IMG/VR virus record: IMGVR_UViG_3300033148_003991
Span: 1 to 52,577 of that record
Reading direction: 5' to 3' (one strand)
DNA: 52,577 nucleotides
Source of the DNA: a virus
A model generated the notes under the pieces. It was not told the DNA's origin and did not search any database. It saw only the letters and a program-made list of their open reading frames with translations. Shown here in pieces: positions 5,403 through 52,577 of the stretch. Both the position numbers and the translations under genes were made by a program. Numbering within the stretch: the stretch's first letter is position 1; every line of letters begins with the position of its first letter.

Positions 5403-5650
5403 TTCTTCTCCCTTGCCGCCTCGGCGGCTTCCTGGAGCAGCGTCTTAAGGTCTGCCATGTAATTGCCCCAATTTAACCAATAGCCTTTACTCGACCATAC
5501 GGCCCCACTCGCAACTGTCTCCGCCTTGTTCGCGATAGTCTTCAATCGCTTGTACTCTCCGAGCAGCCAGCGCACGCATTTATTGTCCGTCATCAGGTTT
5601 CGGGCAAGGTTGTCTTCGATTTCTTCGATGCTGGGGGTCAGGTCATTCAT
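5399..5650 (-). CDS. Hypothetical protein, 83 aa
   Basis: It starts MNDLTPSIEEIEDNLAR after GGAGAAGAA and overlaps the lysozyme gene by 4 bases. The sequence is mainly helical and ends in an Ala/Glu/Lys helix. No family recognised. Confidence 0.7.
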   Translation of the reverse strand: MNDLTPSIEEIEDNLARNLMTDNKCVRWLLGEYKRLKTIANKAETVASGAVWSSKGYWLNWGNYMADLKTLLQEAAEAAREKK

Positions 5651-6186
5651 TTCTTCTCCATCACGCGCTTCACCTTCCACCAGTAATTCAGGGTTGACTG
5701 CTTACGATGACCTCTGGGACCGCCGTTGTGCATCCGTGCCCTAGCCTCTCCCGTCCCTGCCTTCCAGCGATCCCAGTAGGCCACCATTACGTCCTCACAG
5801 CGCCCACGATTCCAAACAAATGTCTCGTAATCCCAATCCACGCCAAGATGCTCGCAAGCCTCTTGCCAATAGGGCTTTGTTATTTGGTAGGGCCCGAGCG
5901 AAAGCCCCCCGTCTCCCACGGCGTTATCGTTCCCGCCCGATTCGACCTGTCTGATTGCCGCGAACAACTGCCTGGTAGTAAATCGCGGGGCGGGTGCAGG
6001 CGGAGGGAGTTCCTGCACCACGCCACCGCGAGAGGCCGGAAAGGAGGGAAACGGCCTCGTTGTGGCCACCTCGGGTAGGGGGGGACCCGGAGCGGCCGGG
6101 CCTGGGTACACGAGACCCCAAGCCAGCGCAACGGACAATGCCAAAAGGGGTAAAAAGAGCGTCAGAAAGTCGTGTAACTGTTTCAT
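5647..6186 (-). CDS. Endolysin: i-type (destabilase-like) lysozyme with N-terminal signal anchor
   Basis: 179 residues. Residues 7-27 form a hydrophobic segment that could act as a signal-anchor, followed by a Pro/Ala-rich linker to about residue 67. The catalytic domain shows QVESGGND (Glu at about 82), GGLSLGPYQI with a following YW, a Cys pair, and RMHNGGPRG, the hallmark set of invertebrate-type lysozymes that cleave the peptidoglycan glycan strand. A signal-anchor release mechanism would let it reach the periplasm without a large holin hole. The gene lies in the replication block, about 7 kb from the holin/lipoprotein cassette, which is unusual. Confidence 0.82.
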   Translation of the reverse strand: MKQLHDFLTLFLPLLALSVALAWGLVYPGPAAPGPPLPEVATTRPFPSFPASRGGVVQELPPPAPAPRFTTRQLFAAIRQVESGGNDNAVGDGGLSLGPYQITKPYWQEACEHLGVDWDYETFVWNRGRCEDVMVAYWDRWKAGTGEARARMHNGGPRGHRKQSTLNYWWKVKRVMEKK

Positions 6187-6590: not shown

Positions 6591-6606
6591 GCTAGGCTCC
6601 TTCATA

Positions 6607-6685
6607 GGCCCCGGCGGGGTTCGAACCCGCGACCTTTTGGTAGTTTACACCTTTGCTCTTCCAACGATCTCTGAGCTACGGGGCC
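6607..6685 (-). tRNA. tRNA-like gene, degenerate (anticodon position reads AAA)
   Basis: Perfect 7-bp acceptor stem (GGCCCCG/CGGGGCC), 4-bp D stem (GCTC/GAGC) and a perfect T arm (GCGGG-TTCGAAC-CCCGC) support a tRNA. The D loop is 14 bases, and the anticodon stem has only three pairs (GGT/ACC) with two A-A oppositions at its base. In that fold the loop GTAAACT places AAA at the anticodon, an unusual choice. No CCA is encoded. It may be a decaying tRNA or one with a noncanonical role. Confidence 0.65.
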
Positions 6686-9149: not shown

Positions 9150-9353
9150 TCAATCGCAGTAGCTTCGATGACACTTGGGGCATCCTGTTACCAATATCTC
9201 GTCCATTGTCGCCTTGAGATGGGTTGCTAGGTCGTAGCCACAGCTCCCGCAGTAGCCATCGCGCGGCATGAACATGGGCCAATCATGGCTTCGACATAGC
9301 TCAGCCTGCATCTGTAGTGCCTCATCCCGTGAGATTGTCGTCTGTTCACTCAT
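9150..9353 (-). CDS. Small zinc-ribbon protein, 67 aa
   Basis: It starts MSEQTTISRDEALQMQ after GGAAAGGAG. The C-terminal half has YCGSCGYD and GCPKCHRSYCD, two Cys-x2-Cys pairs about 25 residues apart, a classical zinc ribbon. First gene downstream of the large structured noncoding region, which may therefore form part of its transcript. Confidence 0.75.
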   Translation of the reverse strand: MSEQTTISRDEALQMQAELCRSHDWPMFMPRDGYCGSCGYDLATHLKATMDEILVTGCPKCHRSYCD

Positions 9354-9966
9354 GTCGATGCTCCTTTCCGTATTGCCCCGCCAGGCCGGCAAGCCCGACG
9401 GGACGGCACTTTTCCGTCTGACAATCGAATTAGGCTAGACCTCTATAGGCGGCTCCGCTCAGTTCTTTGGGGCCACAGGCTGCGTCTCTCTGGGGCCGGT
9501 TATGGAGAAACATTGCGAGAGGAGGGGGTCGAACCCGCCCACGTACGTTTCTTCAGGCATGAATGCCTGCGGCTCCGCAGAGCCATCATTTCGCCGTGTG
9601 GCACCGTCCAGATAACAGCCATCTCGCATAACCCCGTCCGAGACTCCATGGAGCGTGTCAGACGGGGGGCAAATCCACAGGCCCCGGGCCGTTGTTTGTA
9701 CCGCTGGGTCCAGCAGCCAACGGGTATTCCCACGCATGCCTGCGTACTACCGGCGAGCCCGCGGCATGAAGCTTTGGGCCACCGACCCGACGATACTATC
9801 GCCGGGGTGGTTCGGCGCAGAGCCGCCCCGCGTCACCAGGACGGTTTATGGACATCTCCACGCCGGAGAATGTTGCTCTGCTGCGCTCGACGGCAATACG
9901 GGTTTCTCGGCATCGGTATACCGGCCTTAGGTCCGCCTAGAGCCGCCGACAAGGTGTATACCCCGA

Positions 9967-9997
9967 CACAGCAGAGCAATATTGTTGCTCTGCTGTG
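9967..9997. repeat. Perfect 13-bp hairpin, also present as long-range copies
   Basis: CACAGCAGAGCAA and its reverse complement are separated by TATTG. The 11-base core recurs at 9873-9883 (inverted) and 10219-10229 (direct), giving four alternating copies that could pair locally or at long range. Confidence 0.9.
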
Positions 9998-10407
9998 GCC
10001 GGATTCTCACCGACAGGTACATCTCACAATGGCCTTGTTTATTCAACCAACACGGGCGTTATCGGAGAGTTTCCATTCACACCGGTGCACCAGCATTTAC
10101 AGACTTTCCCGAAGCACGTTCATTCCCGCAGTTACAGGCTATAGCCCAATTCGGGCCACCCCAGCCGCAAGGGTGCGTGCCAGCCGTCTCGTCACGCAGG
10201 CACATTCCCTGTGCCGCACAGCAGAGCAATATCAAGAACGGCGGGCAGGATATATCTCCCTGCAACCGAACCCGGACTGGGAGAGGTCAGTTTGTCCGGC
10301 AAGACCTTTGACTTGGCCAGCCCATTGTAGTGCCGACGTGCCTTTCGCCGCGCGTGTCTTATTCCACGCCGCCGCCATTCGTTTCGTTCGCTATTCACTT
10401 GTTCCGT

Positions 10408-10460
10408 CGCCCGGCCGGCAAACCCTACAGGACCAGGACGTTCCACTGTCCGGCCGGGCG
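10408..10460. repeat. 11-bp GC-rich inverted repeat closing the noncoding region
   Basis: CGCCCGGCCGG at 10408-10418 is perfectly complementary to 10450-10460, with a 31-base insert. It lies eight bases past the stop of the DUF551 gene, so it could be the first stem of the structured RNA or a processing/termination hairpin. Confidence 0.85.
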
Positions 10461-10468
10461 AAATGCTG

Positions 10469-11218
10469 TCAGTACTCGATTTTGAGGTCAGCGATGCTGA
10501 TAACGGCCAGAGACAAGGAAGTCGAGAGCTTGTCCATGGCAATAATTGCCTCTGGGCGAGTCTTGTGCTTTGTCATTACTTGGTAGCCATGGTTCTTGAT
10601 TTCAACGATCCAATACGGAAACAGGGGCACCGCCGTCCGCCGCTCCACCTTCGCCTCCCCCGTCACCTTCGGGGCGGGCCGGGGGCCAAAGGGAATTTCG
10701 CACCAGTGGGTGACGGCACGCCATGTTTTGTTCGGGCCGTACCAGGCGCCGATGGCTGCCGAGAAATGCCCCATCTGAACACCGTCGGCACACATTATGT
10801 TGACATTCCGCCCATCGTCCGGCAACCTGTCGTCCACACTAATCCAGTCGTCTTCCATCTCGGGCTCCTTCGGGGCTTCCTTCGCGGGCATCGCGGCTGC
10901 CTGGAGGAGGTTGGGGAGGATGTTGTGGGTGAAGTCGCAGGCCTTCGACGCTGTGGCGAAGATTCCTTCTGCCGTTTCGTGGTCGTAGTCACGATTGTGA
11001 CCGCGCAAGTAGACCGTTTGTGCGGCCCGGTGCAGTGACGGCAGGCCAACTGATCGCAGGTCCCAGTCGCCGAACTTAGCAAGCAGCAAATCTGGCCCAC
11101 CCAAAATGTGTCGCATCTCTTCCGGTTGCGCCAGCACCTGCATCGTCACCTTTGCCAAGTCCCGCCGGACGTACAGTTCAATCCCGTTGCCCCAGATGAT
11201 CCTGCGTTCGGGTTCCAT
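10469..11218 (-). CDS. DUF551-containing protein
   Basis: 249 residues. The middle (about residues 124-178) reads DDWISVDDRLPDDGRNV, then GHFSAAIGAWY and a THWCEIP end, the pattern of DUF551, a short domain common in phage early proteins with no established biochemical role. The N-terminal ~110 residues are helical and unassigned. The C-terminal ~60 residues (after a WIVEIKNHGYQV segment) look like a separate small domain. The second-last gene before the structured noncoding region. Confidence 0.8.
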   Translation of the reverse strand: MEPERRIIWGNGIELYVRRDLAKVTMQVLAQPEEMRHILGGPDLLLAKFGDWDLRSVGLPSLHRAAQTVYLRGHNRDYDHETAEGIFATASKACDFTHNILPNLLQAAAMPAKEAPKEPEMEDDWISVDDRLPDDGRNVNIMCADGVQMGHFSAAIGAWYGPNKTWRAVTHWCEIPFGPRPAPKVTGEAKVERRTAVPLFPYWIVEIKNHGYQVMTKHKTRPEAIIAMDKLSTSLSLAVISIADLKIEY

Positions 11219-11746: not shown

Positions 11747-12163
11747 TCACAGTCTCCTTTCCTGATGCAGATACCGATGGCACGACCGACAAAGCCAGAC
11801 CACGTCCAGCGGCCGGGAATAGTCCTCGTGGTGGGCGATGGACTTGCTCTTCCCGCAGTGCTCACACGGTAGGGGGGTCAGATCGCCGGTGCGGATCGCG
11901 CGCCTGACGATCGAGCGGGCCATGCCAGCCTTGGGATGCGCTTGGCGCCACTCGCGGAACTTGCGAAGGAAGTATTCTCGGTGTTGCTGATAATTATAAC
12001 GAGTGTATGCCTTGCCTTGTTTTCGCAACCATGCCCGCGCGTTGGCAGCCTGACAGATTCGGCACCAGGAATGTAAACGATCCCGATTGCGTTTGTCGGC
12101 GGCGAAGAGTTTCTTGTCCCGGACTATCCCGCACTTCGAGCAGCGCTTCTCACGGGCTCCCAC
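11747..12163 (-). CDS. HNH endonuclease-like zinc protein, ~138 aa
   Basis: The conserved part begins REKRCSKCGIVRDKKLF, a first Cys pair followed by HSWCRICQ, then a basic helical segment with RKFREWRQAHP. It ends PCEHCGKSKSIAHHEDYSRP and LCRSCHRYLH, an HNH-type Cys4/His site. The frame is open upstream to 12670, but there it overlaps a promoter, a structured RNA and a zinc-ribbon gene and has weaker codon bias, so I chose the GTG at 12163. Probably a DNA-nicking homing-type or recombination HNH protein. The start is uncertain. Confidence 0.7.
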   Translation of the reverse strand: MGAREKRCSKCGIVRDKKLFAADKRNRDRLHSWCRICQAANARAWLRKQGKAYTRYNYQQHREYFLRKFREWRQAHPKAGMARSIVRRAIRTGDLTPLPCEHCGKSKSIAHHEDYSRPLDVVWLCRSCHRYLHQERRL

Positions 12164-12324
12164 AACAGGTCCAAAGAGCCCACCCGGTAGCTGCTGTACT
12201 TCGGGTACTTCTGGTCCCGGCTGAGATACCCCCGGCAGCGTGGACACCTGGCTATCGTCAGCTTCAGAGGGAATAACCAGACGAATCGCATCCGGCACGG
12301 GTGACACTGGGCGGAGGTGCTCAT
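12124..12324 (-). CDS. Small zinc-ribbon protein, 66 aa
   Basis: It begins MSTSAQCHPCRMRF and has ARCPRCRGYLSRD, two Cys-x2-Cys pairs 12 residues apart. Third codon positions are strongly G/C through most of the frame, and AAGGA precedes the ATG, whereas the overlapping frame is Pro/Ser-rich and unremarkable. First gene after the TTGACA promoter, so probably the first product of the leftward early operon. The last 14 codons overlap the HNH gene. Confidence 0.6.
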   Translation of the reverse strand: MSTSAQCHPCRMRFVWLFPLKLTIARCPRCRGYLSRDQKYPKYSSYRVGSLDLLWEPVRSAARSAG

Positions 12325-12352
12325 AGGGACGTTCCTTAAATGGATCGTCCCT
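12325..12352 (-). promoter_or_regulatory. Hairpin over the ribosome site of the first early gene
   Basis: AGGGACG/CGTCCCT (7 bp) encloses a 14-base loop that holds the AAGGA site of the gene starting at 12324. It could modulate translation of the first early gene. Confidence 0.5.
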
Positions 12353-12380
12353 GACAACCCCGATAGCTCCATCACGAGCT

Positions 12381-12408
12381 ACAATAGTCTCGCGCCCCCG
12401 CTTGTCAA
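12381..12408 (-). promoter_or_regulatory. Sigma70-type promoter for the leftward early operon
   Basis: On the minus strand a perfect TTGACA (12408-12403) is followed after 16 bases by TATTGT (12386-12381, 4 of 6 matches). Transcription would start near 12374, giving a leader of about 50 bases before the zinc-ribbon gene. Confidence 0.65.
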
Positions 12409-12514
12409 ATGTTTTCTCCAAATCAAACGCCTCATAACCCGGTAAAGCCGGACGGTGCCCGACAGAAGTCTCCCGTGTGCCTGTAGATATGTCTTCCCGA
12501 CTTGGGGTTGAATG

Positions 12515-12634
12515 CAAAACAGCCAGCCCCTTGTGAGGGCTGGCTTGACGATCGACAGGGACCAACACTCCTGCCAAGGAAGCGGCCCCTGTCGTTTCTT
12601 CCGGGTGCTTCGAGTTGGCAGGAGTGTTCTTCAT
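12515..12634 (-). ncRNA. Candidate small RNA: pseudoknot plus intrinsic terminator
   Basis: Minus strand, 5-prime to 3-prime: a 14-base arm (12628-12615), an 8-base arm (12594-12587), the complement of the first (12577-12564), then the complement of the second (12560-12553). These interleaved perfect pairs form an H-type pseudoknot. Seven bases later comes a 9-bp GC-rich hairpin (12545-12537/12529-12521) followed by GTTTTG. A TATAAT at 12646-12641 would start transcription near 12634. A free-standing RNA of about 120 nt is inferred. Confidence 0.6.
12519..12545 (-). terminator. Intrinsic terminator hairpin of the small RNA
   Basis: AGCCAGCCC and GGGCTGGCT pair perfectly around a 7-base loop and are followed on the minus strand by GTTTTG. 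The T tract is short (four), so efficiency is uncertain. Confidence 0.55.
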
Positions 12635-12640
12635 GCCTTC

Positions 12641-12646
12641 ATTATA
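12641..12646 (-). promoter_or_regulatory. Consensus -10 (TATAAT) before the small RNA
   Basis: A perfect TATAAT in the context CCGCTATAAT, the same ten bases as the promoter at 21002. The -35 is weak (TGGTCG at 17 bases, or TTGTGG at 20). Confidence 0.5.
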
Positions 12647-12708
12647 GCGGCCTGGGCGCACCCCGACCACAAGAATCTGAGATTTTTTTGAGAAAAGTTT
12701 CCCCGCCT

Positions 12709-45581: not shown

Positions 45582-45712
45582 CTTCTTCTCTCCCGCTGTT
45601 GGGTGCAGGCGCTACCCCTGCCGGGAGTACTCGCGCCCTCCGGCGTGCCTGCGTAGCCGTTGATGGGGGCATCCGACAGGAGTAGCGGATTCAACCAAGT
45701 CCTACCAGAACA

Positions 45713-45783
45713 GGCGGGGACCGGGATCGAACCAGCCACGTTGGGCGTATGAGGCCCAATAGCCCACCAGGGCTCTCCCCGCT
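45713..45783 (-). tRNA. tRNA-Met (anticodon CAT)
   Basis: The anticodon arm is TGGGC-CTCATAC-GCCCA with T33 and CAT at 34-36, the T arm is GCTGG-TTCGATC-CCGGT, the D arm is AGCC/GGCT and the acceptor stem is GCGGGG/CCCCGC with an A-C first pair. The 5-prime AG overlaps the TAG stop of the upstream gene. No CCA is encoded. Confidence 0.75.
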
Positions 45784-46125: not shown

Positions 46126-46452
46126 TCAAGGCGTTCTCGCCTTTACGTCGTCCTGGAATGGCTGCTTGTGGAAGGATTCCCAACTATCGGCATTGACGTC
46201 CTGCCCGCAGATGCGGCAGATGAAGACCTCTTGGCCGTTCCGGTGCATCACCCGTAGCTTCTGATGCGGGCAATGGGGTTCCAGCAGGGCCTCTATCCGG
46301 GCCAGAGCGGCTAGGATGCGGTCGATGTCGGATACCTTCTCGGCCGGGGCAATGTAATCCTTGCACATCCAGGCTGTCCCGGCCCTATTCCCGGACGTGC
46401 CGATGAAAACACAGCCTGACTGCTGACAAGCGTAGCAGGTCTTCTCACTCAT
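46126..46452 (-). CDS. Zinc-binding protein, 108 aa (paralogue of the 47486-47788 gene)
   Basis: The N-terminus MSEKTCYACQQSGC, then SDIDRILAALARIEALLEPHCPH and ICRICGQDVNAD. The order Cys pair, DRILAALAxIxAL helix, CPH and C-R-x-CGxDVNA also occurs in the 47486 gene, so the two arose by duplication. Probably zinc-binding; role unknown. Confidence 0.75.
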   Translation of the reverse strand: MSEKTCYACQQSGCVFIGTSGNRAGTAWMCKDYIAPAEKVSDIDRILAALARIEALLEPHCPHQKLRVMHRNGQEVFICRICGQDVNADSWESFHKQPFQDDVKARTP

Positions 46453-47493: not shown

Positions 47494-47788
47494 TGACATC
47501 CGCCCCGCAAAGACGACAAAGGGCCTTGCCCGTCGCGGTGTCGATGCCGGCATGGTGTGGGCAGGGATGGGCCTGTAATTGCAGGGCCTTGATCTCGGCC
47601 AGCGCGGCCAGGATGCGGTCGGTGTCGGTCTCTTTGAACGACTTCATCATGGGTATGCCAGGGGGCAACTTCTCCCGCCACTGCGAGCACCCGCCCTTCT
47701 TGAACTCCTCAAGCCCGAAAGCACAACGTGACGTAATAGCCTCATAGGCGCGGCACAACGAACAGTTAGCTTGGGCATGTTCACTCAT
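47486..47788 (-). CDS. Zinc-binding protein, 100 aa (paralogue of the 46126-46452 gene)
   Basis: MSEHAQANCSLCRAYEAITSRC, a DRILAALAEIKALQLQ helix, then HPCPHHAGID and LCRLCGADVNA, aligning with the downstream paralogue. Multiple Cys/His pairs suggest two zinc sites. Function unknown. Confidence 0.74.
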   Translation of the reverse strand: MSEHAQANCSLCRAYEAITSRCAFGLEEFKKGGCSQWREKLPPGIPMMKSFKETDTDRILAALAEIKALQLQAHPCPHHAGIDTATGKALCRLCGADVNA

Positions 47789-51973: not shown

Positions 51974-52577
51974 TCATTTCGTCTCCACCGCCGCCTCTGA
52001 AAACAATGGGGCATCGCCGCGAATGCGGTCCAGAGCCATGGCGGCGTATTCGGGGCTCAATTCAATCCCGACCCAGTCCCGCCCCAGCCGCTGACAGACC
52101 AGCCCAGTCGTGCCCGCGCCGAAGAAGGGGTCGAGGACGATGCCAGGGACCTTCGCGGGCGGCCGATGCCATATCTTCTCGGTCCACGTGTGCCGCCCCT
52201 TTTCGCCGTCGGCCCGCTTCTCCCAATGCTTCTTTACCTCGTCGGGAGGTACGCAGTCGCAGGTTGGCTGCCAGCCGGTGGTCTCGACCTTGTAGCCGTG
52301 CCCGCCCTTGGCCGCCGCGACAGTTGCCCGCTGGCCCAGTTCGGCATCCTCCTCGTGATTGTGCCAGGACTGCCCTATCGCTCCGCCGCTTCGCTCCACC
52401 GCCCGTCTCCACGGCGCCCCGCATTTCGGACAGCACCCCTTCTCGCTCGTCCCGGCAAGGATGCACGGCTCGATGAGCTTCGGAGGGAAAGTGGCGAAGT
52501 GGGCCTTGCTGTAGGCGTGTGTGGCGACGGTCCAGACGGAGCGGCGGTTGCGGCCGGAGGCGATCGCGCCATCCCCA
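51974..52577 (-). CDS. DNA methyltransferase, C-terminal part (see 1-720)
   Basis: Continuation of the reading frame that runs from 720 through position 1. It contains the middle zinc-like Cys pairs (CCPKCGAPW and CDCVPP), the SAM-binding LDPFFGAGTTGLVCQRLG, then WVGIELSPEYAAMALDRI. It ends at 51974, 13 bases before the next gene start. Bases 52505-52577 duplicate 1-73. Confidence 0.9.
   Translation of the reverse strand, partial: GDGAIASGRNRRSVWTVATHAYSKAHFATFPPKLIEPCILAGTSEKGCCPKCGAPWRRAVERSGGAIGQSWHNHEEDAELGQRATVAAAKGGHGYKVETTGWQPTCDCVPPDEVKKHWEKRADGEKGRHTWTEKIWHRPPAKVPGIVLDPFFGAGTTGLVCQRLGRDWVGIELSPEYAAMALDRIRGDAPLFSEAAVETK
52505..52577. repeat. Terminal direct repeat, right copy
   Basis: Identical to 1-73. 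It lies inside the methyltransferase gene. Confidence 0.95.

Follow-up and report, generated by a model that had tools for sequence, protein, structure and literature searches.

In the 52,577-base virus record analysed here (the window, taken at its full length), the longest stretch without a convincing gene probably encodes a structured noncoding RNA, and a segment within it at 9671-9744 on the minus strand resembles the bacterial RNA family DUF3800-VII (RF02967), a likeness that is new in this follow-up and that marks the only recognisable module in the candidate RNA. The first-pass annotation had read the interval as a candidate giant phage RNA, either a new member of classes such as GOLLD and ROOL or a new class; of that reading, the lack of a gene and the excess of structure (which proves greater on the minus strand) are borne out, but membership in GOLLD or ROOL is not supported.

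The gene-free interval and its setting

The record carries an identical 73-bp direct repeat at both termini (1-73 and 52505-52577), as would be expected of a complete, circularly assembled phage genome, which it therefore probably is, and the minus strand carries most of its genes. The interval and its surroundings comprise the following features.

9393-10468, no strand: interval free of genes by codon scores and the ORF map, flanked by the DUF551 gene and a small zinc-ribbon-like gene
10469-11218, minus: upstream gene with a DUF551 domain (PF04448 in Pfam, 28.3 bits with the cut-off at 22)
9150-9353, minus: downstream small zinc-ribbon-like gene, phrog_20040, with ATG at 9353 and AAAGGAGC ahead of the ATG
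9379-9404, minus: first copy of a 26-nt direct repeat (the two copies 85% identical), lying in the leader of the phrog_20040 gene
10408-10433, minus: copy 2 of the 26-nt direct repeat, within the 5' hairpin
9423-10586, plus: frame that runs 387 codons without a stop, probably noncoding

Both flanking genes lie on the minus strand and look early, and the phrog_20040 gene has a good ribosome-binding site. The earlier statement that the interval holds no convincing gene stands, as codon scores are negative in all frames of both strands over 9451-10350 and the gap is the largest in the gene map that is not filled by an overlapping good ORF. Neither an AT-rich stretch nor a change in GC skew (at 2-kb resolution) was found at 9393-10468, and neither a sigma-70-like promoter nor a minus-strand terminator was found for the candidate RNA.

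Three further observations were made in the window. A Destabilase (invertebrate-type lysozyme) domain is encoded at 5647-6186 on the minus strand (Pfam, 27.3 bits against a cut-off of 26.2) and may belong to an endolysin; the minus-strand gene at 11747-12670 encodes an Endonuclease VII/HNH-like protein that resembles staphylococcal phage proteins annotated as homing endonucleases, for example I-KsaII; and direct repeats of 48 nt, 83-85% identical, lie at 46284-46331 and 47581-47628 and at 1073-1119 and 1342-1389.

Folding and repeats of the candidate RNA

Against a background of dinucleotide-preserving shuffles, the minus strand of the whole region folds at -463.7 kcal/mol with a z-score of -3.84 in one run of 40 shuffles and of -4.49 in another (0 of 40 as low in the latter), and the plus strand with z-scores of -2.65 and -3.09. 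The excess fold energy per nucleotide, -0.039, exceeds what any of the other 1-kb windows shows (25 on each strand, lowest value -0.027). Taken together with the absence of a gene, these statistics are best read as a minus-strand RNA that is large and structured, a model that they partly support and whose predicted parts are as follows.

9420-10465, minus: candidate structured RNA that would start near 10461 and end somewhere in 9474-9400; fold z -3.8 to -4.5, well-defined helices
10407-10461, minus: GC-rich 5'-terminal hairpin of the candidate RNA, 12 bp (10407-10418 with 10450-10461)
9809-10272, minus: 5' domain, closing helix 10272-10265/9816-9809, holding the 14-bp long-range helix 10229-10216/9886-9873; pair probabilities 0.82-0.99
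9967-9997, minus: 13-bp perfect hairpin formed by two copies of the CAGCAGAGCAA element (9967-9979 with 9985-9997, 5-nt loop)
10216-10229, no strand: third copy of the CAGCAGAGCAA element, long-range partner of 9873-9886
9873-9886, no strand: fourth copy of the CAGCAGAGCAA element
9474-9744, minus: 3' domain in its long-range fold, closing helix 9744-9732/9485-9474; pair probabilities 0.91-0.98, z -4.2 on the minus strand versus -1.8 on the plus
9514-9628, minus: sub-domain closed by TGCGAGA/TCTCGCA, with the T-loop-like hairpin GCGGGTTCGACCCCC; neither Rfam nor ARAGORN calls it a tRNA

Across the two domains the pair probabilities of the predicted RNA are mostly above 0.8. The 5' domain alone reaches a z-score of -7.1, its limits having been chosen after folding, and the sub-domains tend toward better folding on the minus than on the plus strand, with limits that came from the minus-strand fold.

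Much of the perfect pairing traces back to the 11-mer CAGCAGAGCAA, which stands in both orientations in four exact copies (9873, 9969, 9985 and 10219) and within the window occurs only in the gene-free region. The first-pass annotation had described a 13-bp hairpin and a long-range pairing that reuses its sequence, and both were recovered, the latter as a 14-bp helix with a pair probability of 0.99, since the presence of four copies allows 10216-10229 to pair with 9873-9886. The GC-rich stem that it had taken to close the region is likewise present, at 12 bp, but forms a local 5' hairpin of the minus-strand RNA and does not close the 1-kb region. Its mention of many perfect inverted repeats needs a similar correction: the region holds 5 stems of at least 11 bp where chance would give 0.08 (a count reached in 0 of 60 shuffles), but these come from only two independent repeat families, one being the GC hairpin and the other an 11- to 13-nt element whose copies combine into the remaining four stems.

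A DUF3800-VII-like module

9671-9744, minus: DUF3800-VII-like RNA module, 35.0 bits; local fold as in genuine members, with compensatory changes

The match to RF02967 scores 1.2 bits below the gathering cut-off of 36.2, with an E-value of 7e-7 for the one family against the phage genome and of 0.003 for all of Rfam against the whole window. When the phage module is aligned with three genuine members, pairing holds in 47 of the 48 cells (97.9%) of a 12-pair core, and 5 of the 12 core pairs have changed at both positions; no more than 1 of 500 shuffles scores as high on these two measures, in an alignment of four sequences only, one of which was picked by a structure-aware model. Taken in isolation, the phage segment shares its outer helices and 5-nt bulge with the genuine members L103 and L104, and the genuine member L106, alone, prefers a different fold. 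The family's model found only three distinct genomes above the cut-off over sets of 385 and 399 sampled bacterial genomes, and nothing at E <= 10 in 25 other related phage records.

A DUF3800 gene (PF12686) adjoins all of the genuine members (L101/L103, L104 and L106) and is absent from the phage genome. The phage module ends in GGAUUUGCCCC, lacking the terminator-like U-run (UUUU or longer) with which L103, L104 and L106 end. Within the full RNA the long-range fold is 28 kcal/mol better than one in which the DUF3800-VII outer helix is forced, and the module would thus need to form co-transcriptionally or to be processed out. We consider it likely that 9671-9744 is a genuine module of this type; because of the score below the cut-off, the lack of a DUF3800 gene, the missing second hairpin and U-run and the rival pairing, it is named DUF3800-VII-like and not a member of the family.

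Searches for known RNA classes and homologues

Rfam 15 includes GOLLD, ROOL and OLE (PMC12286853). The proposed membership in GOLLD or ROOL is not supported by the Rfam search of both strands of the region, which gave no match to GOLLD, ROOL or OLE at the gathering cut-offs or at E <= 5, and the search of the whole window gave none at E <= 3. The genome has two tRNA genes in all (6606-6685 and 45712-45783), the nearer about 2.7 kb from the gene-free region, and no tRNA island. ARAGORN and Rfam found no tRNA or tmRNA in the gene-free region (best, tRNA-Sec at 17.7 bits, E 2.1), and Rfam gave no group I or group II intron at E <= 5. Rfam matches to mir-1000 and MIR168 were dismissed as chance, lying on inverted repeats or coding sequence.

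A blastn search with the gene-free region returned chance matches only among phages, plasmids and 399 Pseudomonadota genomes. The terminase, used as bait, drew 49 loci with a full-length identity of at most about 40%, among which no DNA or covariance-model match to the region was found (46 viral records were searched by DNA); the best DNA match, in G022, falls inside the terminase gene and was discarded. Neighbour proteins used as bait in viral contigs yielded nothing for three genes and no close relative. The 26-nt repeat, the hairpin and the DUF3800-VII motif, scanned as DNA patterns in viral contigs, revealed no homologue: of the pattern matches, the two examined in place (L096 and L107) fall within coding sequence and were rejected, and BLAST shows no further similarity at L097-L100. 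The same kind of scan in genomes recovered one genuine DUF3800-VII, L101. Single-sequence covariance models of two sub-domains, run on the collected loci and in one case also on 349 genomes, found no homologue, and there is consequently no covariation for the kilobase as a whole.

Large gene-free structured gaps of related phages (L068, L071, L084 and L089) have no sequence match to 9393-10468. Those of L084 and L089 hold repeated intergenic elements around small ORFs, and a structured element of about 100 nt (GTCAGCTTAGGCCGTC..GTCACTCAGGCCGTACAGCAGCACC) is repeated between small genes at L084:12180-13000 and L089:1480-2760. The gap at L068:6957-8149 is gene-free, folds strongly (z -6.2) and carries TGTCATCAATATGA-type repeats.

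Competing explanations

The main alternative is one large ornate RNA belonging to a new class, with a GOLLD/ROOL-like role, which would be abundant in lysis and assemble into an RNA scaffold, the DUF3800-VII likeness then being a shared small motif or a coincidence. Its size of about 1 kb, two large domains, high-probability long-range helices, phage context and excess of structure are all in its favour, as is the greater stability of the long-range 3' domain over the DUF3800-VII fold; we nevertheless find it unlikely, given the lack of Rfam matches to GOLLD, ROOL or OLE, of homologues in the material searched and of a tRNA island, and given that the known classes recur across many phages whereas the candidate was not seen twice. 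The third explanation, which we rate as distinctly improbable, is a control region that acts as DNA (a site of replication or partition, or an array bound by proteins), in which the four CAGCAGAGCAA copies would serve as binding sites and the folding would simply follow from having inverted repeats in DNA that is rich in GC. It would account for perfect repeats that are restricted to the gene-free interval and fold on both strands, and for a 26-nt direct repeat at either end of the interval. However, the minus-strand z-score is still -2.9 to -3.8 after the repeat copies, or these and the GC hairpin, are excised (plus-strand values are weaker), and the compensatory pairs in the DUF3800-VII match, together with the absence of an AT-rich stretch and of a GC-skew change, also argue for something other than a DNA site.

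A protein gene of at least 357 codons on the plus strand, with unusual codon use and an antisense overlap with the DUF551 gene, draws on an open frame that went unmentioned in the first-pass annotation: the frame crosses the gene-free region with 0 stops in 358 codons, a length reached by 0 of 3000 shuffles (shuffle maximum 343 codons), and GGAG stands five or six bases ahead of a TTG at 9513. This reading was rejected and is, in our estimate, very improbable. The frame lies on the strand opposite to its neighbours, has a codon score of -0.096 per codon and shows no periodicity in GC by codon position (0.60/0.55/0.61), and its predicted product, with 13% Arg and 6% Asp+Glu, has the composition of antisense frames. 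That product has no PHROG, Pfam, PDB or tblastn match, and the mean AlphaFold pLDDT of 31 is weak evidence, as the model was run without an alignment. The frame is thus probably noncoding, although its openness remains unexplained.

A possible decoy of host DUF3800

The explanation that we prefer, tentatively, is a minus-strand structured noncoding RNA that carries a DUF3800-VII mimic and acts as a decoy for host DUF3800. Either a single RNA spanning about 1 kb or a few RNAs side by side would run in the same direction as the flanking genes, and the 3' half would mimic the bacterial DUF3800-VII RNA. The RNA would fold and act in trans during infection, where its DUF3800-VII-like module may bind or occupy the host DUF3800 protein, an RNase H-fold nuclease. 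We infer the transcription, the single transcript, the DUF3800 binding and the decoy effect, and the decoy role taken by itself is doubtful. Phages counter toxin-antitoxin and CRISPR systems with RNA mimics, and a phage that has the RNA but not the DUF3800 protein would, on that precedent, fit a decoy. DUF3800 has been described as an RNase H-fold nuclease that is found with noncoding RNAs and at some CRISPR loci (PMC10910872, PMC12669027).

For this decoy explanation we count the absence of a gene, the minus-biased excess of structure, the match to DUF3800-VII in both sequence and fold, and the lack of a DUF3800 gene in the phage. Against it we count the score under the cut-off, the missing second hairpin and U-run, the four-sequence alignment, the missing homologues and hence covariation for the 1-kb RNA, the open plus-strand frame, the long-range fold favoured over the module and the failure to find a sigma-70-like promoter or a minus-strand terminator. 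It would be a long shot to see here a large phage RNA of a new class, which incorporates a mimic of a host nuclease-associated RNA and disarms an RNA-linked DUF3800 defence by means of an RNA decoy and not a protein.

To our knowledge, the RNAs associated with DUF3800 are known from sequence alone. A DUF3800-VII-like RNA in a phage that has no DUF3800 gene would suggest that such RNAs belong to the conflict between phage and host, and, should the entire kilobase be a single RNA, the known large phage RNAs would gain another.

Relation to known systems

GOLLD, like the phage region, is a large structured RNA of about 0.8-1 kb that is found in phage genomes; the phage region differs in having no Rfam match to GOLLD, no tRNA island and no homologues. 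ROOL is similar in being a large, multi-domain structured RNA of phages, and differs in that the phage region has no Rfam match to it. From DUF3800-VII the phage module differs in having one internal hairpin as opposed to two in the genuine members, in scoring 1.2 bits under the cut-off, in ending without a U-run and in being embedded, with no adjoining DUF3800 gene, in a 1-kb structured phage region. It shares with DUF3800-VII the outer 7-bp helix, the GGCAUGCG..GGAAUA motif, the second helix with its 5-nt bulge and the 3' strand GGCC.GGGGCCU, with pairs that are kept by compensatory changes.
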